DNA of 64,000 nt from Halorhabdus utahensis DSM 12940 (GTDB taxonomy: Archaea > Halobacteriota > Halobacteria > Halobacteriales > Haloarculaceae): contig NC_013158.1 of NCBI RefSeq assembly GCF_000023945.1, positions 2,170,001 through 2,234,000 on the forward strand. The letters are read 5' to 3'. The notes beneath the pieces are model-generated. The model ran no database searches. It was given only the letters and a program-made list of their open reading frames with translations, and was not told the origin of the DNA. The position numbers and the translations under genes were made by a program. Of this stretch, positions 3,945 to 33,239 are shown in pieces (position 1 is the stretch's first letter; the number at the start of each line of letters is the position of its first letter).

Positions 3945-6281
3945 ATGGGTGGGAAATTATCAAACGGTGACGTTTCGGACGCACAGCAACCAGCCGACTC
4001 GGGCGCGTACGTTGTCGAAGACGAAGACGGAAATCGGCGCGTCGTTCAGGATCCAACGGCCGAATCGACCGGGAGTGACCGCGAGGCGACAACTGCCGAC
4101 TTCCAGACTGCGGCCACCGGGAGCGTTGCGGTGCTCGTCTCTGGACCGAGACAGCACAGCGCTGGACCACTTCCCTCGAGTGTGAACGCGACGATATGGG
4201 CCGGCGCGTACGACGATAGTAGCGAAGTTCCGGTCGGAATTGCCGACGAGCAACTGGACATTACCGTCACGCGTCCCGACGGGACGACGGAGTCTTTCAT
4301 CGCGCAGACCGACAAACACGGGAGTGCATCGGTCGACTACGATCTTTCGGCGTCTAATCGCGGAGACGGAAGCTACGACGTGACAGTTACCGACAGCAAC
4401 GAGACAAGTACGTCGATAACGGTCGAGGTAGGAACGATTGAGGTTATGGCCACGACAGATGGGGTGAGTAATGGCGTTTTCGTCGGTAAAGAGACGACCT
4501 TCGCGTTTCTGGTACATGAGGCTGCTACGGGCGTTCAGGACGTCGAACTCACGCTCCGCGTGACACGCAACGGTAATGCGGTGAAAGAATCGACAGTCCT
4601 GACCGACGCGGATGGATTCGCACAGATCTCATTTACGCCCGATGAAAAGGGGATGTATCAGATTAAAGCGATTCGAAACGGGTTCACAGTCGAATCTACA
4701 ACCGTTAATGTGGTTGAGTATATTGGGGGAGGGTATTTCGATCTCAGACAAGCGCTCGTCGGCTCTACCTCCACATATGGTGGATACGTGTATACTTCGA
4801 ATGGACACGTGTCAAATTTTGACATTGTAATGTCAATATATGCTGGCGACGTGGCCGAAGAGAATCTCCTCACCGAGCAGACAGTCACGACGAACAACGG
4901 CGGGTTTTTTACAGTAGATTACGATGTGCCTTCCGATATCGGTGCCCACAATCTCGAAGCGAGAGCGGAAACAGACGATGGCGAACCAATTTCGCTTGAG
5001 TTCGATTATATCAGATTGAACGAATCGTCTGAGGGCGGCGGTGGTGACCCGGATCCGGTTCAACTATCTGGCAGTAAGGCGGACTGGGGAGACAAAGTTC
5101 CGGGCGAAACAGTTACAATTGATATTGAAGCTATAGACGATGGAACAGCAATCTCGGAAGAACCAATCGACGTATTTCTCAGATACGACTATCAGGGACC
5201 TCCTGCCTTTTCGACGACTGTCACGACGGGCAATGACGGGACTACCTCTGTGAATATTCCTCTTCCTGAGAACGCCCCTGATGCGTCCCAATTGCAAGGC
5301 AGCGTCGGCATGACATATAATGGGACGACATATACCGACTCTATTTGGGCGAATATTCAACGATACGACATTAGTTTCAATTACCCAGATGTAGTCCCGG
5401 GAACGACAGAACCCTATAGGATTAATGTCACTAACAACGCGACCGGAGATGCGGTCGAAGGAATCGAGTACTACTTCGATGCGGTTTATCAAAGTGGACA
5501 ATGCGGATCCTTCGAGACGGGGAAATTAGTATCTGGGAGCGATGGAACTGACGAAATGTCCGTGCAAGTGCCCGAAGACGTGGAATTTTGGTCTGGCGTC
5601 ACTGATATAACTCAGTATGATAGCGGGACTGGGGGGCCAATTACATTTTCGGAAGGGCCAGGGACAGTATCCACAGATGACACTATCGTGGCCGGGCGAA
5701 CGGCTGAATTCACCTTCAGTGTTCCCGAGGATGTGTCACTGTCGGGGATCGCCTTCTCGGAGGGGCCATACCAGACAACAAAGACATTCGGAACGCTGAT
5801 CGATGGTTCGGGCACCTTCTCTTTGACAATCCCGTCGGAGTTCCCTGAAGGCGAGACTTTCGAACTTCGGGTTTGGGCTGTCGATGAACAAGGAAATATC
5901 TACGAAGATGAAAATTGGTTCGAGATCGACGATGGGGGCTCTCTCCCGATCGCTCTCGAAGCCAGCGCCGAGAAGAACGTTCCCGTCGGCGGGCAGGCCC
6001 AACTCTCCCTCTCGGCACAGAAAGTCGATCTTCTCTCGATTGAGAAGCTCTGGTCCGATTGGAATCTCGTAAACTCCGCCACCGGTGGGACCGTCGCTGA
6101 TGATATCACCAACGCTGGGAGGGTAGATATCGACTACAGTTCCGTCCAGAACTCGGCGTCGCCCTCGTTGACGCTCTCGCTTCCCGAGCGATACGTGGGT
6201 GGGAAATACAGCCTGCTCGTCTCGGGAACGGACCCGGACGGGAAAACTGTCGACACGACGGCCACGCTCACGATCGAGTGA
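3945..6281 (+). CDS. Signal-less multi-Ig surface protein with shared C-terminal domain
   Basis: This 778-residue protein is almost entirely beta-rich and has no transmembrane segment and no N-terminal signal peptide (MGGKLSNGDVSDAQQPADSG). Ig-like modules recur, each with a VxxGxxTxFxV opening and a D(A)DGFAQISF-type strand, for example around residues 95-170, 170-260 and 265-350. A glycine-rich linker (EGGGGDPDP) precedes a second set of modules. Residues 666-778 are the same terminal domain found in three other proteins of this window (PVGGQA, KLWSDW, LPERYVGGKY). No catalytic motif is seen. I infer an adhesin or structural role outside the cell, delivered by a non-Sec/Tat route. No upstream in-frame ATG or GTG adds a signal sequence. 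Confidence 0.75.
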   Translation: MGGKLSNGDVSDAQQPADSGAYVVEDEDGNRRVVQDPTAESTGSDREATTADFQTAATGSVAVLVSGPRQHSAGPLPSSVNATIWAGAYDDSSEVPVGIADEQLDITVTRPDGTTESFIAQTDKHGSASVDYDLSASNRGDGSYDVTVTDSNETSTSITVEVGTIEVMATTDGVSNGVFVGKETTFAFLVHEAATGVQDVELTLRVTRNGNAVKESTVLTDADGFAQISFTPDEKGMYQIKAIRNGFTVESTTVNVVEYIGGGYFDLRQALVGSTSTYGGYVYTSNGHVSNFDIVMSIYAGDVAEENLLTEQTVTTNNGGFFTVDYDVPSDIGAHNLEARAETDDGEPISLEFDYIRLNESSEGGGGDPDPVQLSGSKADWGDKVPGETVTIDIEAIDDGTAISEEPIDVFLRYDYQGPPAFSTTVTTGNDGTTSVNIPLPENAPDASQLQGSVGMTYNGTTYTDSIWANIQRYDISFNYPDVVPGTTEPYRINVTNNATGDAVEGIEYYFDAVYQSGQCGSFETGKLVSGSDGTDEMSVQVPEDVEFWSGVTDITQYDSGTGGPITFSEGPGTVSTDDTIVAGRTAEFTFSVPEDVSLSGIAFSEGPYQTTKTFGTLIDGSGTFSLTIPSEFPEGETFELRVWAVDEQGNIYEDENWFEIDDGGSLPIALEASAEKNVPVGGQAQLSLSAQKVDLLSIEKLWSDWNLVNSATGGTVADDITNAGRVDIDYSSVQNSASPSLTLSLPERYVGGKYSLLVSGTDPDGKTVDTTATLTIE

Positions 6282-6635: not shown

Positions 6636-7658
6636 ATGATCTCCCCAACACAAGTGTTGTTCCTCGGTGCGGCACTGTCGGTACTGTTGTGGGGGTTGGA
6701 GCGCTATCGGACGCGGTTCGTCAAGACTGACCTGTTCATCGCTGTCGTCGTCTCGTCCGGTCTGGCAGCCTTCGTGGTCGCGCCGGGCATCTTCTACACT
6801 GTCGGGGGGCTGTTGAACATCCAGAAGCGATTCGTCGTCGCCTCGTTGATTGCCAACGTCGTCTTCATCGTCCTGTTCATGTACGTCATCAATCGGATCC
6901 GGGATCTGCGAGGGGATCTGACCAGGCTCAATCGACAACTCTCGGTCGCACAGGCCCCTCAGGCCGACGGCGGTGTCGAACAGATCTCCGTCGTCATCCC
7001 CGCGTACAACGAGGCCGACACCATCGGCTCCGTCGTTCGGTCACTTCCCGAGCAGACTCACGGGTACGACGTCGAGCCAATCGTGGTCTGTGATGGCTCC
7101 GCGGACGACACCGCCCACCAGGCCCGGACCAACGGGGCGATGGTGGTCAAACACCACGTCAACCAGGGCCAGGGCGGCGCGCTCAAGACCGGGTTCGAAG
7201 TCGCGATCGAGAACGACGCCGCCATCGTCGTCACGATGGACGCCGACGGCCAGCATCCCGCCGAGGAACTCGAAACCCTGATCGAACCCATCGTCCAGGA
7301 TCGCGCGGATTACGTCATGGGATCGCGATACCTCGGCGTCGACCAGTCCGGCAACGGCACCGTTCGTGAGGCCGGCATTCAGTTCTTCACCCGCGCTATC
7401 AACGTCCTGACGAAGTCCTCGATCACCGACTGTACCAACGGCTACCGCGCCATCCGCGGGACGATGCTCGAGGATCTGACGCTGACTGAAGAACGCTTCA
7501 GCGCCCCCGAACTCATCATCGAAGCCCGCAAACAGGGCCTCCGGATCGAGGAAATCCCCGTTACGATCGAGGAACGTGACGCCGGCGAGAGCAAGAAACC
7601 ACAGCTCGGGTACGCGTTTGGCCTCTCGCGAACGATTTTCATGACGTGGATACGGTGA
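6636..7658 (+). CDS. Dolichyl-phosphate sugar synthase-like GT2 with N-terminal membrane domain
   Basis: The 340-residue protein starts with a DUF2304-like region of three hydrophobic helices (about 5-20, 32-55 and 66-88). A GT2 domain follows: ISVVIPAYNEADTIGSVV at 117-134, VCDGSADDTA, GGALKTGFEVA, and the metal-binding MDADGQHP (DAD at 202-204). The tail is IEEIPVTIEERDAGESKKP. This matches dolichyl-phosphate mannose/glucose synthases (DPM1, AglD/AglJ type), which load a sugar from a nucleotide donor onto a polyprenol phosphate at the inner membrane face. It probably feeds the nearby STT3-like enzyme or polysaccharide assembly. The exact sugar cannot be read from the sequence. Confidence 0.85.
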   Translation: MISPTQVLFLGAALSVLLWGLERYRTRFVKTDLFIAVVVSSGLAAFVVAPGIFYTVGGLLNIQKRFVVASLIANVVFIVLFMYVINRIRDLRGDLTRLNRQLSVAQAPQADGGVEQISVVIPAYNEADTIGSVVRSLPEQTHGYDVEPIVVCDGSADDTAHQARTNGAMVVKHHVNQGQGGALKTGFEVAIENDAAIVVTMDADGQHPAEELETLIEPIVQDRADYVMGSRYLGVDQSGNGTVREAGIQFFTRAINVLTKSSITDCTNGYRAIRGTMLEDLTLTEERFSAPELIIEARKQGLRIEEIPVTIEERDAGESKKPQLGYAFGLSRTIFMTWIR

Positions 7659-7794
7659 GTGGATTCTGGAATGATTTCTAAGGCGTTGGCTGTCTTGTCT
7701 CTCTTATCCACACCGGTTCGTCAGCCCCAAGTGAAGGGCCCGAGGAGAGGGTGCTGGTGACACAACACTTGAACCGCGGGTCACTGAACGAACG

Positions 7795-8907
7795 ATGAAC
7801 GTACTGATCGTCAACAAACGAGCGCCGTTCGAGGGTCGCGGTGCCGAGCAGGTTATCTGGGAGATCGGCAAGCGGTTTGCCCAAGCAGGCCATCAGGTCC
7901 GTTTTTTCTGTCCCGATCCGACTTCGGACGCCGAACCGCCTGACTTCGACGGCATCGACTTCTCGTTCGTCGCGACCGCAGACGATCCGACACGTTCGAT
8001 GATCGAATTGTTCGCCCGTGGCCCACGTCACTACCCTGGCGTGTATCGATCTTTCGAACCTGACGTCGTCTATGACAACCCGTCGCCGTTTCCCTTTCAC
8101 CTTGCTCACTTCTATGGCTCAGTGCCTGTGATCAGCAAAGTCCATGCAGTGTATCGTCGTCTCGCGTTCGACTGCAAGGATCATCCGCTTGTCCAGGTTG
8201 GAACCGTCATCGGTGAGGAAACGTATCGGCTGTTCAGTGGCGAGACGTTCGTCACGAACTCAGCGTCGACCGCTGAGCGATTGGAACCGCTGCTTGATAC
8301 GGACAGTAACCGCTTGATCGAGAATCCGATCGGGATTGACGCGGACGAGTTTGAGTATCACGTGCCCGACGAACCCACGGAAGTTGTAACGGTCTCGAAG
8401 CTCTCACCACGCAAGCGGGTGGGTGATCTTCTCCGCGCATGGCGTCACGTCGAGCGGCAGACCGAGACGGTGTCGCTCACAGTAGCGGGTAGCGGGCCTC
8501 TGGAGGATGAACTTCACGAACTGGCAGGGGATCTGGGTCTGGATCGTGTTAACTTTCCGGGGTACGTGAGTGAATCTCACAAGAAGGGCCTCTTGCGAGA
8601 TGCCAGTATATACGTCACGCCGACGATTTACGAAGGATTCGGTATCTCGCCGCTGGAAGCGATGGCGAGCGGGTGCGCTGTCGTCTCCAGTGATACTTGG
8701 GGGGTGAAGGACTATATCGAGGATGGAGTGAACGGTCGTCTTGTTCCGACCAGATCACCGCACCAGGTGGCCACTGCAGTGACCGATCTACTGGAAAACG
8801 ACGAACGACGGTGTTCCGTCGCTGAACATGGAAGGGCGACTGCCAAGGTATATTCCATGGATAAGAGTCTGGATCGTGAGGTAACCGTCTTGGAGAATTC
8901 CGTTTGA
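7795..8907 (+). CDS. GT4-family glycosyltransferase
   Basis: This 370-residue GT-B protein shows the usual two halves. The N-terminal acceptor half begins MNVLIVNKRAPFEGRGAEQVIWEIGKRF (glycine loop then helix). The C-terminal nucleotide-sugar half contains VVTVSKLSPRKRVGDLLRAW, then the EX7E region YEGFGISPLEAMASGCAVV (Glu pair around residues 280-288), ending in GVNGRLVPTRSP. Such enzymes add one sugar from an NDP-sugar to a lipid-linked glycan on the cytoplasmic face. It is followed by a sulfatase-like gene on the same strand and lies inside the polysaccharide cluster. Donor and acceptor are unknown. Confidence 0.85.
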   Translation: MNVLIVNKRAPFEGRGAEQVIWEIGKRFAQAGHQVRFFCPDPTSDAEPPDFDGIDFSFVATADDPTRSMIELFARGPRHYPGVYRSFEPDVVYDNPSPFPFHLAHFYGSVPVISKVHAVYRRLAFDCKDHPLVQVGTVIGEETYRLFSGETFVTNSASTAERLEPLLDTDSNRLIENPIGIDADEFEYHVPDEPTEVVTVSKLSPRKRVGDLLRAWRHVERQTETVSLTVAGSGPLEDELHELAGDLGLDRVNFPGYVSESHKKGLLRDASIYVTPTIYEGFGISPLEAMASGCAVVSSDTWGVKDYIEDGVNGRLVPTRSPHQVATAVTDLLENDERRCSVAEHGRATAKVYSMDKSLDREVTVLENSV

Positions 8908-8961
8908 GAGACATTCATCAGTTTCATACGTCTCGTTGACTGTACTTCTATTCGATTAGAG

Positions 8962-10251
8962 ATGAAAAATGTTGTATTACTCACAATAGATGCCCTTCGC
9001 GCGGATCATCTCTCCTGTTATGGGTATGATCGGACCACCACCCCATTTTTAGACAGCTTTGCTGAACAGTCTATATTGTTCGAAAACACCTATTCTACGA
9101 GCTCTCACACCAGGGAGGCGATGGCATCGTTGCTTTCAGGCACCTATCCTGACGAGGCAATCGAAGACGATTATTCGATCTCCGCAGAGACCGTGGCCAG
9201 CCATCTTGCTGACACACATTTGTGTGGTGGATTTCACTCGAACCCGTATCTCTCACGAGCCTTCGGATACGACCGAGATTTTGAGGCTTTCGACGATGAT
9301 CTTCGACTGGGACAAAATCGAATTCTTGGACTCATTCAACGTGCTCTCGATAAGTTTGTTTTCAACAGGGGGTCGTATCATGCACGGGCTTCAGAAATCA
9401 ACGAACGATCACTGAACTGGTTGGATTCGATTCAGGACGAAGAGCCGTATTTTCTCTGGAATCATTATATGGACGTACACGGCCCCTATAATCCACCGAC
9501 AGACTATAACACGTGGTCGGATCCCATCTCTGACAGCGACGCTCAACAGTTATATGACGCTCTCTCCGGCGGTGAAGCCGTTTCTGAGGATGACGTAGGC
9601 AGAGCCCTGAATCTCTACGATGGTGAAATATTGTATACAGATGCCCTCATTGAAGAGTTCATTACCGAACTAGACCGGAGAGATCATCTCGAGGATACGT
9701 TGGTACTGATCACTGCAGACCACGGGGATCTGTTCGGCGAATACGATTCGTTCGCCCATCCTCGGTACGTATATCCCGAGCTAACACGGGTGCCGCTGTT
9801 GGTGCGGACGCCGGAGACACAGACTGGGCGCGTCCAGGGGGCCTGTTCGACGGTTGACATTCTTCCGACGATACTCGACTGGATTGGTCAGTCAAACGAA
9901 CAGCTCGCGGGTCGATCTCTCTTCGACGATGTCGAATCGGATCGGGTTGTCTACAGTACTGCGAGAGGGGAAGATGACAACCAGCACTGTCGCCGGATCG
10001 CTGCAAACCAGCGTGGCCATTCGCATCTGCTGGAATATGACACGCAGAGGGAGACCATCCAGCACGAACGACGCATCGTGAGTAACCCGGAACAATCGTC
10101 TGCAAACAACTGCGACATTGATTGGGGCATGTTGCGGGATAACGCACGTTCGTTCGGTCAGGTCCATGCAGAGTCGAAATCCGCTCCGGGGAGTGGGGCG
10201 GAAGTTGAGGAAGAAATAGAACGACGTCTCGACGCCCTCGGTTACAAGTAA
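8962..10251 (+). CDS. Sulfatase/alkaline-phosphatase superfamily enzyme
   Basis: The 429-residue protein has the sulfatase-fold metal motifs LLTIDALRADHLSCYGY (metal Asp near residue 9-10) and LITADHGDLFGEY (Asp-His pair near residue 253), plus the helix-capping STSSHTREAMASLLSGTYP where the nucleophile normally sits. There is no CxPxR formylglycine motif, so a Ser or Thr may be the nucleophile. That would suggest a phosphotransferase, phosphodiesterase or sulfotransfer role rather than a classical sulfatase. No signal peptide is visible. The end, EEIERRLDALGYK, is a tail common in haloarchaeal members. It lies 54 bp after a GT4 gene and probably modifies the glycan or its lipid carrier. Confidence 0.8.
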   Translation: MKNVVLLTIDALRADHLSCYGYDRTTTPFLDSFAEQSILFENTYSTSSHTREAMASLLSGTYPDEAIEDDYSISAETVASHLADTHLCGGFHSNPYLSRAFGYDRDFEAFDDDLRLGQNRILGLIQRALDKFVFNRGSYHARASEINERSLNWLDSIQDEEPYFLWNHYMDVHGPYNPPTDYNTWSDPISDSDAQQLYDALSGGEAVSEDDVGRALNLYDGEILYTDALIEEFITELDRRDHLEDTLVLITADHGDLFGEYDSFAHPRYVYPELTRVPLLVRTPETQTGRVQGACSTVDILPTILDWIGQSNEQLAGRSLFDDVESDRVVYSTARGEDDNQHCRRIAANQRGHSHLLEYDTQRETIQHERRIVSNPEQSSANNCDIDWGMLRDNARSFGQVHAESKSAPGSGAEVEEEIERRLDALGYK

Positions 10252-10262
10252 TATCGCAAAAT

Positions 10263-11327
10263 TCAATCCGATTGCAACACTGCAGTGACCTGCTCGCCCA
10301 ACAACTCACAGTCACCTTCTGGGACCAACCTTCCGGGGGGTACTTCTACTGTTTCTGGATGAGCCCCGGCGTCAAACGCCACGACGGGTAACTCCATTTG
10401 TTGGGCTTCGAGGACCGTGAGATTACACCCTTCCCAGAGGCTTGCTGTGACGTAGACGTCTGCCTGCGCATAGTAGGACGTCAGATACTTCTCTTCTACA
10501 TATCCGGCAAATCGAACGTTTTCACCGGCTTGTGCTTTGATTTGCTCGTAGTACCTGTTCTGCGTTGGCTTTCCAACTAGGACGAGATATGGTTTTGTTC
10601 CTTCCGTGTCGATCGCGCTCTTCTGTGCCTCTAACAAGCAGCTGACGTTCTTGTGCTTTGTAATGCGGCCGACAAACAGAATCACCGGTGCAGTCGCCGG
10701 GATATTATGATAGGAACGGATGTCACGGAGATCGAGTTCGTACTCGTGGATGAAACTAGATGGTGAATTGTAGATGATCGCAGTCGGTCGTGGCCCCCAC
10801 TCTTCACGTAACTCGTCGGCAACGAACTCACTGATCGCTATTACCGCCGAGGCTGGCCGTGCCGTCACAGCCTGTAACCGCCGCATGAGCTTACTGTACA
10901 CCTTGGCGACCAGATTATCGTACAACTCCGGCGGGGCGACACCGTGATCGTAATACACGTAGGTCGGTCCCAGCCATGCTCCGAGCGTACAGGCAACGTT
11001 AAACGGATACTTGTGAGAAATGATCGTGTCGTAGTTTCGCAGACGCACAGCCAGCGTCAATACTGGGAGTACGAGGAGCGGCCAGAGAACCCGATACAGC
11101 CGATTCAGGTGGTCGTTCTCGGGAGCGTAGAGTTCGATCACATCGTATGTTTCCGGTGCAAGGTCCGATTCGAAACTATACACCGTCACTTCGGATCCGT
11201 TTTCGGAGAGGACCTCCGCCTGCCGGCGCATGACTTTTGCGACTCCATTGTGTCCCGAAAAGGTAATTGAGAGTAACGCGATATGATCTCCTTCAACGTA
11301 TTCCAAAATCTCACTCTCGGCCATCAT
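10263..11327 (-). CDS. GT4-family glycosyltransferase
   Basis: A GT-B enzyme of about 354 residues. The N-terminal half contains IALLSITFSGHNGVAKVMRRQAEVL and a short hydrophobic patch (LLVLPVLTLAVRL) that may sit on the membrane. The C-terminal half has ILFVGRITKHKNVSCLLEAQ, then SLWEGCNLTVLEAQQMELPVVAFDAGAHPE, the typical EX7E donor-site helix. The start is taken at the MMAESEILEY methionines, because upstream codons read as random sequence. It is transcribed divergently from the flippase gene. Donor sugar and acceptor are unknown. Confidence 0.8.
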   Translation of the reverse strand: MMAESEILEYVEGDHIALLSITFSGHNGVAKVMRRQAEVLSENGSEVTVYSFESDLAPETYDVIELYAPENDHLNRLYRVLWPLLVLPVLTLAVRLRNYDTIISHKYPFNVACTLGAWLGPTYVYYDHGVAPPELYDNLVAKVYSKLMRRLQAVTARPASAVIAISEFVADELREEWGPRPTAIIYNSPSSFIHEYELDLRDIRSYHNIPATAPVILFVGRITKHKNVSCLLEAQKSAIDTEGTKPYLVLVGKPTQNRYYEQIKAQAGENVRFAGYVEEKYLTSYYAQADVYVTASLWEGCNLTVLEAQQMELPVVAFDAGAHPETVEVPPGRLVPEGDCELLGEQVTAVLQSD

Positions 11328-11489
11328 GTTCCTTTTAGCCCAGACGTACATATGCGCGGTGATTGTGACAGGCTGACACAATGATGGATGTTCGCAATCC
11401 GAAGAATACTAATACATTTGTGTCGGTCATCCATAGAGGGCGACAGTCTTGACGATAACGTCGGTTTCCACGGGCCCGGGCGAGGAAGC

Positions 11490-12902
11490 ATGAACATCGG
11501 CAAATCCAGTCTCAAACTATTCGCTGCCAACGCAACGGGTGCTCTGTCGAATTTCACCGGCGTCGTCGTTTTCAACCGGATCCTTGGCGGCTCGCTCGTC
11601 GGTTCGTTTTTCCTGTTCGAAGCCGTTCTCGGGTTACTCTCGATCCCGTCGAATTTCGGCATTCGCGATGGTGTCGAAAAGCGGATCAGTGAAGGAACGG
11701 ATCAGGGTTCGTATTTATCGGCTGCATTACTGCTCAAATTCATTCCACTGGTCGGCATTGCCAGTCTCGTCGTGGTGTTCCGAGGGTATCTGAACGACTA
11801 TATTGGGCAAGATTTCGCCCTCATGCTCGTCGGAGTGCTGTTTCTTCGGGAGTATGCACAACTGTCTTTGAGTGTGCTTCGCGCCGAACTCCGGGTCGGT
11901 GAAACAGCCGCGCTCAAAATGGTCCGACAGGTCTCCTGGCTCCTCATCGGGGTTGGGTTCCTGTACTTGGATTTCGGAGTCGAAAGTCTGGTTGGGGGGC
12001 TGGCGGTCGGCTACGGGCTCATGTTTGTCGGTGGTTGGTACCGAGTATCGACGAGGCCCGCCCGCCCATCACTCTCTCACGCTCGCTCGCTGTTCGATTA
12101 CAGCAAGTTTAGCTTCGTCTCCTCCGTCGGCGGGTATTTCTACAGCTGGATGGATATCGTCATCATTGGCTTGTTCCTGACACAAGCGCACGTCAACGCA
12201 TACGAAGTGTCCTGGCGTGTCACGATGGTCGTTATGTTGTTCAGTCGTGCTCTGGCGACGACGATATTCCCACAGGTGAGTCGGTGGGACACCGAGGAGG
12301 CTATCGAACGGATCGAGAATTTACTGCCGACCGTGCTCCTGTATTCGCTACTGTTCGTCGTGCCCGCTTTCTTCGGGGTTCTCGTGCTATCGGATGAGAT
12401 CTTACAATTGGTGTTTCAGATCGAACTTCCGGGCGTCGGGATCGTCCTCGTGGTTCTCATGGGTGAGAAGATACTGCAGGCGATTCACGTCGTCATCGGT
12501 CGGTCGTTACAGGCGATCGACCGGCCGGACCTTGCCGCCCTGGCAACGCTCGCGACGATCAGCGTAAATCTGGTGTTGAATGTCGTCCTCGTCTGGCAGT
12601 TCGGTCTCGTTGGCGCAGCCGTTGCGACCACTGTTTCGTTCCTTGTGAACACTGCCTTGCACTGGCATTACCTTCGGCAATTTCTCAGAATCAAAATACC
12701 CTTCTGGCAACTTGGGTGGATTATTGCCTCATCAGCAGGAATGGGCATAGTGCTTATGATCCTCAAATCATCACTAAATATATCTTCAATTTCTTGGTTA
12801 TTTGCGGTCATCGCAGCAGGTGTTTTGGTATATTTGGGAATCGTTTTAGTATCCCCATCGATACGAAATGACCTTTTTCAGAAATTCCTATCCCTTTCTT
12901 AA
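11490..12902 (+). CDS. Polysaccharide flippase (MATE/MVF, Wzx-like)
   Basis: This 470-residue integral membrane protein has roughly 12-14 hydrophobic helices throughout and no soluble domain. It begins MNIGKSSLKLFAANATGALSNFTGVVVFNRILG, the typical amphipathic start of Wzx-type exporters, and contains the cytoplasmic-loop Arg (VSTRPARPS) seen in the family. It should translocate lipid-linked oligosaccharide across the membrane. The ATG at 11490 was chosen because GAGGA precedes it and the in-frame codons upstream look noncoding. Base composition shifts to AT-rich in its last 200 bp, where the AT-rich block begins. Confidence 0.85.
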   Translation: MNIGKSSLKLFAANATGALSNFTGVVVFNRILGGSLVGSFFLFEAVLGLLSIPSNFGIRDGVEKRISEGTDQGSYLSAALLLKFIPLVGIASLVVVFRGYLNDYIGQDFALMLVGVLFLREYAQLSLSVLRAELRVGETAALKMVRQVSWLLIGVGFLYLDFGVESLVGGLAVGYGLMFVGGWYRVSTRPARPSLSHARSLFDYSKFSFVSSVGGYFYSWMDIVIIGLFLTQAHVNAYEVSWRVTMVVMLFSRALATTIFPQVSRWDTEEAIERIENLLPTVLLYSLLFVVPAFFGVLVLSDEILQLVFQIELPGVGIVLVVLMGEKILQAIHVVIGRSLQAIDRPDLAALATLATISVNLVLNVVLVWQFGLVGAAVATTVSFLVNTALHWHYLRQFLRIKIPFWQLGWIIASSAGMGIVLMILKSSLNISSISWLFAVIAAGVLVYLGIVLVSPSIRNDLFQKFLSLS

Positions 12903-12972
12903 CCGTTTACCAATCCAATTATATGAATTAATGCTATTGTGAGTAATAGATATATCATTCACCCTCTACTGG

Positions 12973-12983
12973 TTACTTAAATA
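12973..12983 (+). promoter_or_regulatory. Putative TATA element before the GT2 gene at 13023
   Basis: TTACTTAAATA lies about 45 bp before the ATG at 13023, in an AT-rich gap. It is a plausible archaeal promoter for the two-gene GT2/GT4 unit. Confidence 0.4.
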
Positions 12984-13022
12984 CGGAAGCTTTTTTGCGC
13001 CCCATCCAATGATATTTGATAA

Positions 13023-13958
13023 ATGACAACGAATAATGGATCCTCCACTTCTCCTTTGACTGCTGTCGTCTTAATCAACTGGAATAATTTTGAAGATACT
13101 TCAGAGTGCTTAGACTCATTACAAAAATCAACGTACGAAAACATTCAAATCATTGTAGTAGACAACGGATCAACTGATAACTCTCTTAGTCGTTTACAGT
13201 CTAAATTTGAAAATGTGAAATATGTATCTCTTGATGAGAATGAGGGCTTCCCAGCAGCAAATAATGCTGGTATTGAATTTGCTTTGGAAAATGGAGCAGA
13301 ATATGTATTTCTGCTGAATAACGACACCATCGTACCAGAAGAAGACGATGTTCTAAAGAATTTAGTGACATATATGGAAACTAATGAGCAGGTTGGAATA
13401 GTTTCACCACTTGTAACGTACTATCCAGAAACACATTTGGTGTGGTTCTCTGAAGGATCTATTGATTGGATTACTGGAAAAATCCAGCATACTAATATGG
13501 GAAAATCAAAACAATCATGTAACTTACAGATGTATATTTGTAATGATTGTATTCCCGGCTGTGCCATGATGATACGGAGCGAACTATTCGATAGAGTCGG
13601 CCTTTTAGATCCTTCATATTTCTTAAGGTTTAGCGATACCGAGTTTTCACTTAGGGCACTCAATAGTGGATACGATTTAGTCACAGATACATCGGTAGAA
13701 ATATTCCACAAAGCGTCCAGCAGTAGCGGTTCGAAGTTTGATCTTTCGTATTACCAGAGCCGAAATAGGTGGCATCTTATCCGTGACTATTTCCCAAAAA
13801 TATCTTTGTTATTTTATTTTTGGTGGCTGATTAAAGCAACAGCGAATAGGGGACTCCACCGGGATTTTAGTGCAATTACCGATCTATTTTGGGGGGCAAA
13901 AGATGGAATACTTGGAAGGAAGGGGAAAGTTGTCCCTCCAAGCAATCGGATTGAGTAA
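13023..13958 (+). CDS. GT2-family glycosyltransferase (rhamnosyltransferase-like)
   Basis: The 311-residue GT-A protein has AVVLINWNNFEDTSECLDSL, IIVVDNGSTDNSL, NEGFPAANNAGIEFAL and LLNNDTIV (the metal-binding NND in place of DXD). The CIPGCAMMIRSELFDRVGLLDPSYF segment and the FSDTEFSLRAL acceptor-side Asp-Glu follow. This is the pattern of the WcaA/rhamnosyltransferase subgroup, which fits the rml genes nearby. Codons are clearly AT-rich compared with genes outside 12.9-17.8 kb, which suggests recent acquisition. The stop is separated by a single base from the ATG of the next gene. Confidence 0.85.
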   Translation: MTTNNGSSTSPLTAVVLINWNNFEDTSECLDSLQKSTYENIQIIVVDNGSTDNSLSRLQSKFENVKYVSLDENEGFPAANNAGIEFALENGAEYVFLLNNDTIVPEEDDVLKNLVTYMETNEQVGIVSPLVTYYPETHLVWFSEGSIDWITGKIQHTNMGKSKQSCNLQMYICNDCIPGCAMMIRSELFDRVGLLDPSYFLRFSDTEFSLRALNSGYDLVTDTSVEIFHKASSSSGSKFDLSYYQSRNRWHLIRDYFPKISLLFYFWWLIKATANRGLHRDFSAITDLFWGAKDGILGRKGKVVPPSNRIE

Positions 13959-13959
13959 T

Positions 13960-15033: not shown

Positions 15034-15064
15034 TTCAAATAATCTCAACACTCTCTTCAACGTT

Positions 15065-18867: not shown

Positions 18868-18869
18868 CC

Positions 18870-19943: not shown

Positions 19944-19945
19944 GC

Positions 19946-21015: not shown

Positions 21016-21069
21016 ATCCCGACAAAGTGTAAACGAAAACATAAAGCCTCGCGTCTCGCAGTGGCAGGT

Positions 21070-25200: not shown

Positions 25201-26905
25201 CTATAGTGCGACGGCTGCTGATACGGTCGTCGTTTCGAATGGACGGGTCCTTTGGGCGACGAATACAAACCGAGACCCGACCTTGGTCGAAGGAACAGAC
25301 GGGACGACAACCGAACTGTCTCTTCGTGAGGATGTTGCGGAGGTCCGGGAACTGTCTTTTTCGTCGCGGTCAGACGAGGCGATACTCTCCTATATCTCGA
25401 CGCTGGAAGGAAAAGACACTCGCGATCAAGTGTATCGACTCGATCGTGGCAATGGCTGGATTTTTGATCGGAGAATCACCGAGAATATCAAAGATGGGCT
25501 TCGGGTTCGGTACAGTGATCTAGTTTTTGCCGGGAGCGCTTCGTTCCTCTCGGCCTACGCTGTCCGTGATACAGGGACTGATGCGGTGAGTGACGTGTTT
25601 GCGACCCTTCAGGAGTTCGGTCCTGCATACGCCATTGATGGATCGATCGATAGTGGTACAGCGGGCGGAGAAACGACATTGTCCTACACGCTGGAGAACC
25701 GCGGCGACGTTGACGGGGCAGAACAGGTCACTGTTAGAATACTCCGTGATGGAACAGAAATCAAGGCGATCACGCACAAGCCCTTGGAGTCCGGCGGAAC
25801 GCTGGCTCGCAATTGGACAGTCACGGTCGGTGATGGGGGCGAGTTCGAACTCCAGTTGGATGTGCCGGAACCGTCGCTTGAGACAGAACCACACAGTGTC
25901 GAGTTGATTGCTGCGACTGTCCAGCTACGTGTTGATACAGTGGCTGCGACGCGGATCGGACCGAGCGAAGCGACAATCGCCGTGACAGTCACGAACCATG
26001 GCGGTGCGGTCGCTGAGAACGTACCTGTGGAACTGAGCGATGCCGCTGGTCCGGTAGGCACACCAATGCTCGATCGAATCGAGCCAGAAACGACCACCAC
26101 TGTCGAGACTGTCATTGACCCAGTGTCGCTGGACAACTCCGACACCCATACTGTTCGACTTGATCCAAATGAGAGACTCCCGCCACAGGCAGAAACAACT
26201 TCGCTACGCCGAACGTACTTGGTTCGTCCAGACCTTCGTGTTGAGGATATCCGCTACCGAGAGGACAATGATCGATTCGTTCGAGTGCTCGTGTCGAACC
26301 ATGGTCCAGGCGAGGGAACAGCGAGCCTTACGATTAGAGACGGCACCGACACGGAACTGGCGACGACAGATATCTCATTGCCGCCGGCGAAGACAGAAAA
26401 CGGGAGTACTGTTGCAGTGCATCGCGCCATTGATTTACAGGTTCCAACCCTGGAACCGGCGCAAACGGTTGCCATCGAGGCGGAGCCAGACGTAAGTAAT
26501 CTGCACCAGGAGACACTTTCCCGCGTCGAGACAGCCGAGCCGATTTTGCCGGGAGAGTACAGAGGCGATGTTGGTGATCTCACTGTGAATGCCTCTAATG
26601 AGACCATTCCAGTCGGCGGAGAAGCATCAATCGATGTTTCTGCGGACAATGTCGGGCAACTTATAATCGAAAATATCTGGACGGACTGGACAGTGTCTGT
26701 CGATGTACCAAGCGACATCGTCGAGAAATCTGTCGAAGCCAACGGCAGAGTGACACTCACTTGGCCAAGTACGAAGAGTGCTGTTTCGCCAACGCTGGCA
26801 ATATCAGTACCTGACCGTTACATCGGTGGGACATACGAAGTGAACCTCACTGCAACAAACGCAAGCGATGTCGCCGAAACCACTTCGATGCTCGTCATAA
26901 AATAA
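22235..26905 (+). CDS. 1556-residue PKD/propeller/CARDB-like surface protein with shared C-terminal domain
   Basis: No signal peptide precedes the first domain (MAKDDTFLSDDFEEYAIGSF), which looks like a jelly-roll carbohydrate-binding module (residues 1-210). Two PKD domains follow (about 217-296, YKWEFSDDTS; 298-370, YTWDFGDGRG). A long beta-rich region (370-720) then leads into sialidase/propeller-like strands (about 760-1110, e.g. EILLAWKRLPED, WHLAWESFDRETGS). CARDB-like Ig modules occupy about 1125-1440 (LENRGDVDGAEQVTVRI, VTNHGGAVAENVPVEL, VSNHGPGEGTASLTI). The last 110 residues (1447-1556) are the terminal domain shared with three neighbours (PVGGEA, NIWTDW, VPDRYIGGTY). It has no transmembrane helix and no sortase-type tail. 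I infer a large extracellular matrix or adhesin protein. Confidence 0.78.
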   Translation: MAKDDTFLSDDFEEYAIGSFPGRWQQSGNSDQKIVDEPVTSGDKALQLVGSYGSCWQALAHRELGSSLPKDESVIVRGEIDPTGEGGGGCHGTKNGSIDIRENPSAWPNVGFKRKLIQFDAEGSVRGGGIDLGSCEIGVYNSFKIEYYWDSNGEEVNLQYQINGEFRGETTVDVQTNDSGDVVESKLQYLTVVSGDYKIHVDRLSIVSGSDIITRPDLNSEISVSTATTSPGNQITFDASKSTGQIDTYKWEFSDDTSATGLTVTRSFDTTGIYSITLTTVDGDETDTTTSEVAVVRETELNFSAQPAQPVTGQSVTFEGTGGNSYTWDFGDGRGATGQQVTHTYDESGDYRVTLATEQDTVTRTISVNSANIEIANLDRDIGGTLLPKLGIDEGVEATINTADGQDIDRVEFYFAGQKAISKSPPYDASLTIDDIEPPATPLTVRAVTTDGMQQDFQQDIPIQRLPDWLEFLLKSTDTLGVALTDEEIEITYTPLSNLAPGIDIPNDLLGGDESPRENGDGDYDFGVAMGGIYDPRTNEAELTAAGNITAEVMALAFEIKVALIGEIEATTLELQSAQADIDSLLSFDVAPPTIPVPVSIPIPGTDSAIGIVPTILISADGTFDFNADLSFDTGTVEPGVELQVSIGIALELPALPDGELKGVPSGGIDGQFDVGTDDWNIQATFFLAGKVVLDPPFLPGITLEQDPIWDQPLTGSTTEQVTATTVSRPRVCHKSAGGPQPLPEIDSVDTVSVDTDTISPRESFRLTDRPYEDIEPVLASPAENTQVVIWGQQAENKPADAGHDLVGRWYENGSWSKTFAITDDTYANASPVCAAMSTGEILLAWKRLPEDLTASGEQLDTLAAVNNTRDKAEIAYSIYDGNSWSDPTLLTSTSVTQRRPTVAKADGEWHLAWESFDRETGSTTVRSTVVSPDGTTAPISEWSGAASPDLGRRNDGTVDLAYLVWDGAQVTGVTHTIRDGTATMSDQTYSATAADTVVVSNGRVLWATNTNRDPTLVEGTDGTTTELSLREDVAEVRELSFSSRSDEAILSYISTLEGKDTRDQVYRLDRGNGWIFDRRITENIKDGLRVRYSDLVFAGSASFLSAYAVRDTGTDAVSDVFATLQEFGPAYAIDGSIDSGTAGGETTLSYTLENRGDVDGAEQVTVRILRDGTEIKAITHKPLESGGTLARNWTVTVGDGGEFELQLDVPEPSLETEPHSVELIAATVQLRVDTVAATRIGPSEATIAVTVTNHGGAVAENVPVELSDAAGPVGTPMLDRIEPETTTTVETVIDPVSLDNSDTHTVRLDPNERLPPQAETTSLRRTYLVRPDLRVEDIRYREDNDRFVRVLVSNHGPGEGTASLTIRDGTDTELATTDISLPPAKTENGSTVAVHRAIDLQVPTLEPAQTVAIEAEPDVSNLHQETLSRVETAEPILPGEYRGDVGDLTVNASNETIPVGGEASIDVSADNVGQLIIENIWTDWTVSVDVPSDIVEKSVEANGRVTLTWPSTKSAVSPTLAISVPDRYIGGTYEVNLTATNASDVAETTSMLVIK

Positions 26906-27029
26906 CGCGCACTTATATATTTGAACCCTGTCACATATTGGCCAGCAAAAAGCATAACTACCGTTCGATTACATTCACTACTATGTGCATCACATATTCC
27001 AAAACATCAGTACTAGAGAGAGTGGAAAT

Positions 27030-28628
27030 ATGATACAATACGGTGATACGGTAACTGGGACAACCGAAGATCGACTGTTCTTTACAGCTGAAGAAGAGGA
27101 CGTGGTAAGTATCGATTTGAGAGTGAACAACCCAATCGACAATGAAGGTCGGATAGACTTACGCCGTCCGAATGAAGATCATTTGACTTATGCACGCGGG
27201 AATGCTGAAGATGGAAATGCGGCCATTTCGCTGCATAGTCTACCGCGAATTTCTGGCGATTATATTATCGATGTGACGAGTTCAGTCAATTCTGATAATG
27301 ACACGTTGGACTATGAATTATCTTTGTATAAAGGGGTCCCTTCAGAAAAGGTGATAACGTATGGTGAGAGTCTAACCGGGGAAATCACCCGCGATGATCG
27401 GTATTATGATAACTATACTATTGCGGGCTATCATGACACGTATGGCTTTGAAGCGGACGTAGGCGATGAGGTCACGGTCGAAATGCGGCCGGACAACGAG
27501 ATAGATAACGATGCGCAGATTGCATTATTCGATCCGGATGGAGACCTCGCAAAAACTGCCGAATACAATGGTGAAGACGGGAACGCGGTTATTACGCAAT
27601 ACGGTGTTGACCAGTATTCGGCAGGTGAATATACGATTGTTGCGACAGGAGACCAAGATACGGATCTTTTCAGCTACGAAATCTCTGTGTACGAAGGGAT
27701 TCCGATCGATCGAATGATCTCGTATGGTGAGAGTCTAACAGGGGAGATCACCCGAGGGGACCGATATTATGATAATTTCTCTGTTAAGGGCTATCACGAT
27801 ACGTATGGCCTACAAGCCGACGTAGGCGATGAAATTACAATCGAGATACGGCCGCACAACGAGATAGATAATGATGCATGGATAGCACTGTACGATCCGG
27901 ATGGGAACCGAGTAGAATATGACGAACACGGCGGCGAAGATGGGAACGCTGTTATTACGCAATATGGTGTTGACCAGTATTCGGCAGGCGAATATACGAT
28001 TGTTGCGACAGGAGACCAAGATACGGATCTTTTCAGCTACGAAATCTCTGTGTACGAAGGGATTCCAATTGATCAAACAATCTCATATGGTGAGAGTCTA
28101 ACAGGGGAGATCACCCGAGAAGATCGATATTTTGATAATTTTTCTGTTAAGGGCTATCACGATACGTATGGATTCGAAACCCGAGAAGATAATGTAGTAA
28201 CTATTGAAATGAAGCCTCATAATGAATTAGATAATGATGCATGGATAGCACTGTATGATCCGGATGAGAACCGAGTAGAATATGATGAACACGGCGGCAA
28301 AGATGGGAACGCAATAATCCCAAACCTATCGGTAGACCAAGCAGGAACCTATACTATCGTTTCATCGGGCGATGGTAACACAGATACTTTCAGATATACA
28401 ATCTCTCTTTCGTTAGAGAATGGGACACCTCCTCAAGAAGTTCATCCATCCGGTGTATCCCAAGAAGTATGGAGTGCTGTTACTTCGCAAAACAGCCCGG
28501 CTGGCGAACTCACTGCAGGTGATCTGGACGGTGCAGTTCAATCGTATCAGAACAACTCTCCCATCAACGGGGTGTCAATCATATTTCAGGACCTGATTGA
28601 CCTTGTTCAGTGGTACAATCAACAATGA
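27030..28628 (+). CDS. Four-repeat PPC-like protein with dockerin-like C-terminus
   Basis: The 532-residue product consists of four ~110-121-residue beta-sandwich repeats resembling pre-peptidase C-terminal (PPC) domains. Each opens with YGESLTGEITR-type sequence and contains NEIDNDAWIALYDPDGNR and GEYTIVATGDQDTD. The last ~65 residues (GVSQEVWSAVTSQ, GELTAGDLDGAVQSYQNN, INGVSIIFQDLIDLVQWY) look like a degenerate dockerin/EF-hand pair. No signal peptide is present. The ATG at 27030 is used because the first repeat begins right after it; a GTG at 26985 is an alternative. Its stop overlaps the next ATG (ATGA), so the two products are made together and may interact. Confidence 0.75.
   Translation: MIQYGDTVTGTTEDRLFFTAEEEDVVSIDLRVNNPIDNEGRIDLRRPNEDHLTYARGNAEDGNAAISLHSLPRISGDYIIDVTSSVNSDNDTLDYELSLYKGVPSEKVITYGESLTGEITRDDRYYDNYTIAGYHDTYGFEADVGDEVTVEMRPDNEIDNDAQIALFDPDGDLAKTAEYNGEDGNAVITQYGVDQYSAGEYTIVATGDQDTDLFSYEISVYEGIPIDRMISYGESLTGEITRGDRYYDNFSVKGYHDTYGLQADVGDEITIEIRPHNEIDNDAWIALYDPDGNRVEYDEHGGEDGNAVITQYGVDQYSAGEYTIVATGDQDTDLFSYEISVYEGIPIDQTISYGESLTGEITREDRYFDNFSVKGYHDTYGFETREDNVVTIEMKPHNELDNDAWIALYDPDENRVEYDEHGGKDGNAIIPNLSVDQAGTYTIVSSGDGNTDTFRYTISLSLENGTPPQEVHPSGVSQEVWSAVTSQNSPAGELTAGDLDGAVQSYQNNSPINGVSIIFQDLIDLVQWYNQQ
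27354..28420 (+). repeat. 363-bp direct repeats in the PPC-like gene
   Basis: Units start at 27354, 27717 and 28080, with a diverged first unit from 27030. Units 2 and 3 share a block of about 100 nt with only a few mismatches (near 27603-27710 and 27966-28073), indicating recent unequal exchange. Unit 4 is more diverged at its 3' end. Confidence 0.85.
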
Positions 28629-29671
28629 CGAAAAGTGAAATTGAAGGCGGAAAAATATCCGAGCTCAGTCACCCTGAGATCATCGCACCAGATAGCGAGT
28701 TTACCGTGATTGTCGACACTGTTGACTCTGCAGGGACGGTTGTCGAAGTTGAGTCTGGCGGATTTGATCTCGATATCACAACATCTCACGATGACGTTGT
28801 AGCCAATAACAACGGTCGTGTCGAATTCATTGACCGGACGGAAGGAGAATCTACATACGTAGTTGATGTTGATGTACTCGATGGTGCCGATGGAGAGACA
28901 GGCACTGTTCGGTCATGGGTCAATGCAGAAAAGCCAGCTGACGCTGATTATGAGCAGTCATCTCAATTTAGGATTGATGACGAGGCAACGGAGAATGCAA
29001 ACGGCGAGATCACCTTGCTTGATCACCCCAATGCTGTCCCTCCCACTGGTGAGCTCACACTAACGATTGAGAGCAAAGCCTCCACAGGAACGATTGTCGA
29101 CTTCGACCCGGATGGGTTTGAAGTTAATATGACAACTAGCGATACAGATTTGGTCAAAGAAACTGGAAACAAACTGGAATTCATTGACCTGGGGAGTGGT
29201 AATTCGGTCTACGATATCGGAGTAGACATTTTGAATGGGTCCCAGGGAGATACTATAGGAATTTCTAGCTGGGTGAATTCTGAATCTCAAATGAGAGCCG
29301 ATGATGAACGGACCTCAGATATTCTCTTAGGAGATGTTGAACCATCGCTCAGTGCTTCCGGTGACGTCATTTCGCCAGGTGGGAAAGCAAAGGTAACGAT
29401 TGAAGCCTCGGGCATCAACGCTGTAGAACTTGATGGACTGTGGGTGGGTATGGATATCCTTGAATCAGCGTCTGACTTTTCCAGAGGTACATTCAATCGT
29501 AACGGGCGAAAATCGATCATAAGCTACGACAATACACGGGTCGGGTTAGAACTCACCGTCATCATTCAACCATCACAAAAATACGGAACAGGGGACTATC
29601 TTTTCACCATCAGAGGTAGCGGGTCAGGAGACAATCCCGCCACAGATGAAGTTATCATTCGGATTGAATAG
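28625..29671 (+). CDS. Two-repeat beta-sandwich protein with shared C-terminal domain
   Basis: The 348-residue product has two related modules of ~110 residues (about 8-120 and 121-235). Both read L-x-HP...P...ELT-I...S-GT-VD...GF-V--TTS--D-V...FID, followed by a VDIL-G--G-T--I-SWVN strand. The last 109 residues (240-348) are the divergent fourth copy of the shared terminal domain (SPGGKAKVTIEASGI, LWVGMD, YGTGDYLFTI). No signal peptide or membrane span is present (MTKSEIEGGKISELSH). The start overlaps the stop of the dockerin-like gene (ATGA). The repeat resembles cohesin-like beta sandwiches only loosely, so binding to its coupled neighbour is speculation. Confidence 0.72.
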   Translation: MTKSEIEGGKISELSHPEIIAPDSEFTVIVDTVDSAGTVVEVESGGFDLDITTSHDDVVANNNGRVEFIDRTEGESTYVVDVDVLDGADGETGTVRSWVNAEKPADADYEQSSQFRIDDEATENANGEITLLDHPNAVPPTGELTLTIESKASTGTIVDFDPDGFEVNMTTSDTDLVKETGNKLEFIDLGSGNSVYDIGVDILNGSQGDTIGISSWVNSESQMRADDERTSDILLGDVEPSLSASGDVISPGGKAKVTIEASGINAVELDGLWVGMDILESASDFSRGTFNRNGRKSIISYDNTRVGLELTVIIQPSQKYGTGDYLFTIRGSGSGDNPATDEVIIRIE

Positions 29672-31337: not shown

Positions 31338-33239
31338 TCAGGAGATATCGATCTGGACCGTCTTCTCGACGGGCGATCCGGATTTCTGACCGATCACGTC
31401 CACCACATACGTACCGCCGACGTAGCGACTCGGCACGTCGACAGTCAGCGACACGGAGACCGACGACTGCGTCGAATCCCACGAGAATGACCCCGTCCCG
31501 GCGGACGCAACGTCGTCACTGAAGGTCCCGCCGTCGGGTTGCGTCGAGTCGACCGACCAGTCCGTCCAGAGGTCCGCTACGGTAATGTTCTCGATGTCGC
31601 TTCCCGCGGCTGTTATCGTCGCGCGTTCCCCGGGCGAGATCACGTCGCCGGTCGCATGAATCGACGTCGACCACTCCTGAGCGGCCGCGACGTCGGTGTA
31701 TCCGTGACCGATCTTGGTGTTGTTCTCGCCGGGCTCGGCGACATCGGAATCGACGATCGACCGTCCCGTATCGAACAGTGCGTCACGCGCTTGGACTGGA
31801 CTGGCGCTGATCGCCGAGCCGAACAGCAACCCGAACGCCCCGCCGACATGTGGTGAGGCTGCCGATGTCCCGTTGAAGCCGCCACCGTCTTCGAGTGCGC
31901 CATACGCGCCGTATTCACCCTCGTCGGTCGTCGAAACCATCGACGGTGCGGCGATGTCGATCCCCCGTCGCCCGTCCTGTGTCGGCCCCTGCGAGGAGTA
32001 GGGCTTGAGATGTTCCTCGCTGGTCCGACCGTACTCCGTTGCCTGTACGGCCGCCACGGAAAGCAGATTTTCGTCGGGACTCGTCGCCGGGATCCCGATG
32101 CTTCGACGCGCGGTTGTGCGACCGAGCGACGAGTACCAGGTGAACATGTCGAAGTGCTCGTCGCCGGTGGCGTCGACCTTCTCGATTTCGAGATGGTACG
32201 GGTTACTTCCCGACGACGGTGCCGAGATGATCTCGACGGGATCGGTCGTCTGTTCAGTGAGGAGTGCCGAGCTATCACCGACTGGATCGTCTTCGTTGTC
32301 GTACACCCGGACTTTGTAGCGCTGGTCGTCCTGGCTCCAGTCGGCATCCCAGTGGACGTGGATCTCGCTGCCCGAATAGGGCATTTCCACGGGGAACCGT
32401 GTGGGCGTCGACAGCGAACTGTCGAAGACCATCAGATCGTTGCCGTCGTTCTCGAACTGTCCGTCCCAGTGTGCGTTCGCCTCGTTGCCGGCGGAGTTCG
32501 CAAACAGCCGCCCGCCGTCAGTGAACTGATCGATTCGCGAACTGATCGGGTCCTCGCCGTCGATGCGGAGTCCGGTATAATACCCCAGCGACATCGTCGC
32601 CCCGTCCGGATCGTAACTTTCGATCTCGTTCATGATTTGGCCGAACGATTGCGGGCCGATGGTCGTCGCGAGAACCAGTTCCGCGTCGGGGGCGACGTCG
32701 GCGACCAGTTCGGCACAGGCCGTTCCGTGTTGTTCCGTTGGCCCTTCGTAACTTGTATCGTTGTATTCACTATCAGACGTGAAATACGTACTATCGCCGA
32801 CAGTCGCAACGATTCTATCTGAATATTTCGGGTTGTCGGTGTGGAACCTGTGGTCGATGACGGCGATGCGGGCGCCGTCACCCGTGACGCCTTCATCGTG
32901 GAGGGTGTCGGCGTGCATCACGCCGACGCCCTCTGAAATGTTCCGCTCCGGTACCTGATGTGCACGCGGCGTGTGGCGTTCCTGGATGTGACGCACCGCG
33001 TCCGATTCCGCGATCGTAAGCGTACTTTTCGGCGGCAGGTCGACCGCGATGTATCCGGCGTCCACCGATCGGATCTCCCTGCCGGTCTTCTCTATTGCTC
33101 GCTTGGCAGCCGAAACCTTCCCCGGTTCCGCTCTGACGTACAGCGGCAGTACTTTGTCAGAATCGGCCGTCTGTTTTCGCTCCCCTTCCCCCACCTTCCG
33201 TCGCACTGGGCCCGCCAGTTTTGACGGAGAAGAACTCAT
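31338..33239 (-). CDS. Subtilisin-like serine protease (S8) with prodomain and shared C-terminal domain, no signal peptide
   Basis: The 633-residue protein has an inhibitor-I9-like prodomain at about 30-95 (LPLYVRAEPGKV, DAGYIAVDLP, AVRHIQE). The catalytic set reads Asp129 (IAVIDHRF), His171 (EQHGTACAELVADVAP), oxyanion Asn252 (NSAGN) and Ser459 (FNGTSAASPHVGG). A beta insertion (~265-365) separates Asn and Ser. Residues 524-633 are the shared terminal domain (SPGERATIT, DLWTDW, VPSRYVGGTY). The N-terminus (MSSSPSKLAGPVRRK) carries no Sec or Tat signal, unlike classical secreted halolysins. It is downstream of a lipoprotein on the same strand that bears a prodomain-like domain. It may process the other surface proteins of the locus. 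Confidence 0.88.
   Translation of the reverse strand: MSSSPSKLAGPVRRKVGEGERKQTADSDKVLPLYVRAEPGKVSAAKRAIEKTGREIRSVDAGYIAVDLPPKSTLTIAESDAVRHIQERHTPRAHQVPERNISEGVGVMHADTLHDEGVTGDGARIAVIDHRFHTDNPKYSDRIVATVGDSTYFTSDSEYNDTSYEGPTEQHGTACAELVADVAPDAELVLATTIGPQSFGQIMNEIESYDPDGATMSLGYYTGLRIDGEDPISSRIDQFTDGGRLFANSAGNEANAHWDGQFENDGNDLMVFDSSLSTPTRFPVEMPYSGSEIHVHWDADWSQDDQRYKVRVYDNEDDPVGDSSALLTEQTTDPVEIISAPSSGSNPYHLEIEKVDATGDEHFDMFTWYSSLGRTTARRSIGIPATSPDENLLSVAAVQATEYGRTSEEHLKPYSSQGPTQDGRRGIDIAAPSMVSTTDEGEYGAYGALEDGGGFNGTSAASPHVGGAFGLLFGSAISASPVQARDALFDTGRSIVDSDVAEPGENNTKIGHGYTDVAAAQEWSTSIHATGDVISPGERATITAAGSDIENITVADLWTDWSVDSTQPDGGTFSDDVASAGTGSFSWDSTQSSVSVSLTVDVPSRYVGGTYVVDVIGQKSGSPVEKTVQIDIS

Follow-up and report, generated by a model that had tools for sequence, protein, structure and literature searches.

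How do proteins with extracellular-type bodies and no readable N-terminal signal peptide come to carry one and the same terminal domain? The question is raised by a stretch of 64,000 nucleotides from Halorhabdus utahensis DSM 12940 (contig NC_013158.1, positions 2,170,001 to 2,234,000), the whole of which is referred to below as the window and its source genome as G000. Alignment showed that four open reading frames (ORFs) in the window each end in one homologous domain. A first-pass annotation, made from the sequence alone, had pointed out this shared tail and had taken it for a C-terminal export or attachment signal; the tail was borne out by our analysis, and that interpretation as a whole is partly supported. 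Our best explanation, which we hold tentatively, is that the tail is a folded immunoglobulin (Ig)-like docking module that took over targeting from the N-terminal signal in extracellular-type proteins.

A domain shared by four window proteins

A profile built from 17 copies, all from other genomes and with no sequence from G000 (the blind profile), recovered the four window tails with E values of 3.3e-33, 4.8e-33, 2.2e-32 and 8.5e-15. The same profile gave no match in 3,260 shuffled ORFs (20 shuffles of the 163 window ORFs), and chance similarity of the tails was rejected on this comparison. The genes and their domain copies are as follows.

3945..6281, plus strand: 778-amino-acid signal-less protein with an MG2/filamin/Ig-like body, carrying copy 1
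5934..6281, plus strand: domain copy 1 (residues 664-778; A1/A2 alignment; blind profile E 2.2e-32)
22235..26905, plus strand: 1556-amino-acid signal-less PKD/CARDB protein, carrying copy 2
26564..26905, plus strand: domain copy 2 (residues 1444-1556; alignment and blind profile)
28610..29671, plus strand: 353-amino-acid signal-less two-repeat protein, operon-like, carrying copy 3
29330..29671, plus strand: domain copy 3, the most diverged (residues 241-353; blind profile E 8.5e-15)
31338..33239, minus strand: signal-less subtilase (S8) with prodomain, carrying copy 4
31341..31682, minus strand: domain copy 4 (blind profile E 3.3e-33; AlphaFold2 model pLDDT 90.4)

The four ORFs of the first-pass annotation are real, although the subtilase lies on the minus strand and the third ORF opens with a GTG at 28610 instead of 28625. 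The tail of this third protein, described there as the most degenerate, indeed lacks the second W of the LWxxW motif and the first G of RYxGG. The start of its gene overlaps the upstream stop codon by 19 nucleotides (nt), in an operon-like manner. As had been stated, no Sec or twin-arginine translocation (Tat) signal, transmembrane segment or PGF-CTERM match was found on any of the four proteins. Homologues of the 3945-6281 protein with the same end are present in genomes G018 (48%) and G142 (39-40%), and the catalytic D/H/S motifs of the subtilase, read by eye, are intact. A fifth copy in G000 lies outside the window, about 110 kb beyond the subtilase (G000:C1:2313424-2313747), on a repeat protein of 914-921 amino acids.

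Pfam and NCBIfam recognised the bodies of these proteins (MG2/filamin, PKD/CARDB and subtilase). The tail matched no model in Pfam, NCBIfam or PHROGs, and no description of such a domain was found in the open literature; among the databases searched, it is a new domain family. AlphaFold2 modelling of the four window tails alone gave an all-beta Ig-like sandwich with a predicted local distance difference test score (pLDDT) of 90.4 and a predicted template-modelling score (pTM) of 0.82. In the fold search, adhesin, pilin, cohesin and integrin domains were tied, among the matches listed, at a Z of about 11 with 5-15% identity, and the fold therefore says little about function. C-terminal domains of type IX secretion did not appear among these listed matches, an absence that carries no weight.

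Distribution and two clades of the domain

The 146 genomes of the family were searched with an 18-row alignment. Matches were obtained in 17 of them, and eight carry close copies: G000, G018, G027, G031 (the metagenome-assembled genome (MAG) Halobacteriales archaeon QH_10_67_22), G137, G142, G144 and G147. Samples of the order (392 genomes) and the phylum (197 genomes) added a single genome, G190, whose copies are more distant; as no more than 11 and 23 candidates, respectively, were scored in each genome, how rare the domain is beyond the family can be given only as an estimate. A scan of the GTDB-220 contigs with A3 found no relative, and was too insensitive, as G031 itself is in that collection. 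Mobile or viral origin was rejected, because the viral contigs, phages and plasmids searched contained no copy.

In the tree, the copies split into two clades on one branch with support of 100/99. Clade A, to which the window copies belong, is marked by LW..W and RYxGGxY and comprises 22 copies in the eight genomes. Three of these are fragments or masked, including a seemingly internal copy in G137 that runs into a stretch of N, and 19 are on intact proteins. In 18 of the 19 the domain stands at the very C-terminus with 0-4 residues after it. The remaining one, an FG-GAP protein of G018, has the domain at its N-terminus, which shows that the module is not bound to the C-terminus; the position proposed at first was accordingly correct as a strong tendency, and not as a strict rule. 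No credible Sec or Tat signal was detected in any of the 19 intact proteins, nor any transmembrane segment or lipobox. Two RR pairs that pass a loose Tat rule, GNRRVVQDPTAE and RQRRKLKKVAEQ, stand in a charged context and are not Tat motifs. After removal of the domain, the clade-A bodies form 12 unrelated clusters, in agreement with the earlier observation of one domain on unrelated bodies. Directly behind the intact subtilase gene of G018 (L034) lies a truncated second copy with the domain (4624-5328), which looks like a decaying duplicate.

The clade-B relatives, from G011, G190, G060, G081 and G092, share the core residues G18, W42, W68, P84 and G90 with clade A, but have no LW or RYxGGxY patch. 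Clade A alone is marked by L38, W39, P77, Y87, G89 and Y92, with W39 and Y87 at 100% versus 0%. Clade-B domains are mostly internal or in tandem, a Sec or lipobox signal is present in 9 of the 9 proteins with complete N-termini, and some of these proteins have a PGF-type anchor or a dockerin-like tail at the C-terminus. The association of the domain with signal-less proteins, as originally proposed, thus holds for clade A but not for the often internal, signal-bearing clade B. In G011 (L042 and L043), PGF-anchored surface proteins as long as 1665 amino acids contain tandem clade-B domains that alternate, by eye, with cohesin-like stretches. The appearance is that of an old module of surface proteins in which a new conserved patch arose.

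Signals in homologues with and without the domain

Domain-bearing proteins were compared with homologues of the same body that lack the domain. Among the domain-free homologues of the window subtilase, 25 of 28 have a signal (26 if L132 is given a shorter start), against none of the two domain copies. The G144 subtilase belongs to a different S8 lineage, in which the counts are 27/27 and 0/1; the rule-based Tat call on this domain copy is an RR inside the prodomain, NRRDGVEITNQLWLANAVVLRVDTDR. For the GH13 amylase of G027, they are 27/29 and 0/1. Summed over these three catalytic bodies, a Sec or Tat signal is found in 79 of 84 domain-free proteins and in none of the four domain copies (Fisher 5e-5). 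The PKD/CARDB body behaves in the same way: both domain-free homologues have a signal (Tat-like in G154, Sec in G060) and neither of the two domain copies does.

The clearest case is a pair of amylases, 77% identical, within the one genome of G027. The amylase without the domain keeps its Tat signal, SRRGVLKGIGGAVAAATAGVGFAQSA, intact and has a PGF-type end. In the amylase with the domain, TRREVLKQVSGGAGAAISDVATT, the twin arginine is kept and the hydrophobic stretch is broken by an aspartate; the Tat signal has decayed in this copy. This genome also has a tandem cluster of several GH13 amylases, all with Tat signals (L178, G027:C1:2917500-2927500).

A further case concerns a lipoprotein encoded in the window.

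52983..54278, minus strand: FG-GAP Tat lipoprotein

Its G018 homologue (30% identity) is the protein with the N-terminal domain, which there takes the place of the signal. In the amylase, subtilase, PKD and FG-GAP cases, the domain goes with the disappearance of Sec as well as Tat signals; the comparisons of homologues indicate that the signal is replaced in the domain proteins and not merely absent. Start-site error was rejected as the cause: 14 of 18 copies have an in-frame stop no more than about 40 nt upstream, and the rest have no earlier start codon. The four window ORFs are closed off upstream by in-frame stops at -141, -42, -9 and -6 nt, and no start codon precedes the assigned ones. 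A few hydrophobic out-of-frame stretches upstream of the starts look like the ends of neighbouring genes or chance.

The subtilase partner and the location of the domain proteins

A small gene stands upstream of the subtilase.

33499..34017, minus strand: Tat lipoprotein

Strong homologues of this lipoprotein are present in G000, G018, G027 and G134, where the adjacent subtilase of the family has no signal in any of the four. In G077 and G154 the homologues are weaker, and there they overlap a subtilase with a Sec signal; the lipoprotein-subtilase pair is kept in six genomes. By hhalign, the C-terminal half of the lipoprotein is similar to the subtilase prodomain (probability 78%, E 1.8e-5). 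AlphaFold2 modelled the lipoprotein domain poorly (pLDDT 58), and that model was left unused. Since the partner is exported where its signal is readable, the pairing suggests, indirectly, that the window subtilase is located outside the cell as well. Body composition was secreted-like in 14 of 20 cases, by a classifier with an area under the curve of 0.87.

The polysaccharide locus and its neighbourhood

The window copies cluster around a polysaccharide locus, in which a candidate partner of the domain proteins is encoded; a further signal-less protein lies between two of the domain genes.

6636..21996, plus strand: polysaccharide locus (glycosyltransferases, flippase, sulfatase-like and dTDP-sugar genes)
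16978..18288, plus strand: tail-fibre-like protein with an intact textbook Tat signal (SRRGILASLATLGLLGSATGAASA), candidate carrier or anchor
26985..28628, plus strand: signal-less repeat protein without the domain, PPC-like by eye, between two domain genes

The link to a polysaccharide island, claimed previously, is seen in three of the eight genomes, where the copies cluster at such a locus, but copies in G027, G031, G144 and G147 lie away from one. The neighbourhoods shared by G000, G018 and G027 consist of polysaccharide genes and a MoxR/DUF58-type operon. No obvious exporter or transporter was found in them, and the co-occurrence with a conserved membrane gene that the first-pass annotation had named as possible support was not seen there.

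The Tat-bearing form of the fibre-like protein is present in G000, G018, G027 and G031, each of which has several domain copies, that is, in 4 of the 8 domain genomes versus 0 of the 138 others (Fisher 3.9e-6, uncorrected for the choice of this gene among about 40). Other genomes have only fibre relatives without a readable Tat signal, some of them cut at locus edges. In G031 the fibre gene adjoins gyrase-like genes and is unlinked to the domain genes, so island co-inheritance does not explain this case. Two signal-less tail-fibre-like proteins are encoded in the polysaccharide island of G027 (L102, 6143-8602 and 8730-10604), one with an S74 intramolecular chaperone domain.

Several neighbours were recorded in passing. 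The tail of the 26985-28628 protein is dockerin-like, by eye only, and is a candidate partner of a cohesin-like fold. A MoxR/DUF58/DUF4129-like operon (names by eye) at window positions 34133-41284 adjoins the islands in G018 and G027 too. An AglB/STT3-like oligosaccharyltransferase with a C-terminal laminin-G (concanavalin-like) domain is encoded at 771-3743 on the minus strand, with a 55% identical gene in the G027 island, and an MCM helicase ORF of 1420 amino acids at 45800-50062 on the plus strand has two intein-like insertions by eye.

Possible roles of the domain

A docking role would account for these data as follows. On signal-less proteins of extracellular type, the domain would stand in for the lost N-terminal signal peptide, and the proteins would still act outside the cell. 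The W/Y/G patch of clade A may bind a partner that takes the proteins out or holds them there. They could be co-exported in folded form through Tat with a partner bearing the Tat signal, a kind of hitchhiking, for which the 16978-18288 fibre-like protein is a candidate. Tat is the likeliest of the known routes, because its substrates are folded and 39-55% of the proteins secreted by haloarchaea use it (PMC2945643), and co-export through an adaptor domain would be the least costly, because signal-less subunits are known to be escorted by Tat-signal partners (PMC4273604). Taken on its own, this Tat step is the weakest link of the proposal, and we consider it improbable that it is right in this particular form. 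Export itself and any route for it are candidates at this stage. The broader proposal of a haloarchaeal domain-directed export, in which a transferable Ig-like module exports signal-less enzymes and adhesins and substitutes for a Sec or Tat signal, appears doubtful, although less so than the Tat step.

Several observations weigh against the docking role. The split between signal and no signal is one event on the domain tree, and for this reason the contrast between the clades does not by itself prove the point. G027 and G134 have subtilases of the window subtilase's family that lack both signal and domain. Other proteins of the islands have neither signal nor domain, namely the PQQ propellers, the S74 fibres, the 26985-28628 protein, a subtilase-PQQ protein of G027 and a 1910-amino-acid PKD protein of G018. 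The domain is therefore not needed for the signal-less state, and the loss of signals has another or an additional cause. These domain-free proteins may reach the outside by binding the domain proteins or one another, or all of them may stay inside. In addition, the secreted-like score was low for the bodies of the subtilase (0.22) and of the 28610 protein (0.34), the Ig fold is generic, and the candidate Tat partner was chosen after the fact and is missing from four incomplete single-copy MAGs of one genus.

Retention in the cytosol, with decayed signals and the domain as a scaffold or oligomerisation module, is the most serious alternative, though in our judgement an unlikely one. It would fit the lack of any signal, transmembrane segment or lipobox in all 19 proteins, the broken hydrophobic region in the amylase with the domain and the low score of the window subtilase; intracellular subtilisins and amylases do exist. 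However, the subtilase keeps its Tat-lipobox partner, which also stands next to Sec-signal homologues, a copper-binding plastocyanin-type domain and Ig, PKD and PPC bodies are present, and most bodies are secreted-like in composition. If the proteins are exported, the domain might instead be read directly by a dedicated exporter of an unfamiliar kind, much as the C-terminal Ig-like domain of type IX cargo is read by its own secretion system. The C-terminal position in 18 of 19 proteins, the clade-specific patch and the clustering at polysaccharide loci are consistent with such a machine. Yet the shared neighbourhoods hold no conserved membrane or transporter gene beyond the polysaccharide and MoxR/DUF58-type genes, one copy is N-terminal, and G142, G144 and G147 have single isolated copies, so that we hold this quite improbable.

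Exit by lysis, in vesicles or on a cytosol-assembled tail- or injection-like particle, with the domain attaching to the particle or the surface, seems very improbable. The signal-less S74 fibre-like proteins of the G027 island and the signal-less fibre relatives of other genomes would suit it, as would the existence of haloarchaeal contractile systems (PMC11566945); however, no sheath, tube or capsid gene was recognised near the copies, the domain proteins gave no PHROG match of note, and no copy turned up in the viral, phage and plasmid searches. It is hardly credible that the domain is an ordinary Ig-like spacer kept by descent, its carriers being signal-less from unrelated causes. Clade-B copies are indeed internal spacers in ordinary surface proteins, and signal-less neighbours without the domain exist, but the signal has been lost repeatedly, on about 12 unrelated bodies as well as in swapped pairs, and the near-fixed terminal position and the new conserved patch also speak against a spacer.

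Archaeal exported proteins are predicted almost wholly from N-terminal signals, and a domain that marks proteins which have lost theirs would bring to light a share of the secretome that is hidden at present. In the case of Tat co-export, the docking module would be a modular adaptor version of hitchhiking, and otherwise it would point to a new export system. Should the proteins prove to be cytosolic, they would still show clearly how extracellular families were brought into the cell together with one new domain in common. The two amylases of G027 are a ready-made test pair.

Comparison with known systems

Cohesins and Ig-like adhesin and pilin domains are of the same fold class (Z of about 11), but this likeness is generic, at 5-15% identity; no Pfam cohesin match was obtained for the window proteins, and the one dockerin-like neighbour was recognised only by eye. 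Substrates of the PGF-CTERM/archaeosortase system resemble the domain proteins in having a C-terminal sorting feature on haloarchaeal surface proteins. They differ in having an N-terminal signal and a short tripartite tail with a transmembrane helix, whereas the tail described here is folded, is about 110 residues long and comes with neither; the combination of PGF motif, transmembrane helix and basic tail was not found at the C-termini of the domain proteins.

Haloarchaea have one membrane, and the predicted function of the domain would, by analogy, work like that of the C-terminal domain of the type IX secretion system (T9SS) of Bacteroidota (TIGR04183/TIGR04131 type). Both are Ig-like sandwiches (70-110 residues in type IX), C-terminal, on unrelated cargo and near surface-polysaccharide functions. 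Type IX cargo bears a Sec signal (PMC11285876) and has an outer membrane to cross, in contrast to the haloarchaeal proteins, of which 0 of 19 have a signal, and the four window proteins gave no match to the NCBIfam T9SS C-terminal sorting models at E up to 0.1. In Tat hitchhiking, as in HybO-HybC and PaoABC, signal-less folded proteins travel with a Tat-signal partner (PMC4273604), which is what is proposed here. The known hitchhikers are fixed enzyme complexes, whereas a portable adaptor on many cargoes, for which the domain is a candidate, would be new.

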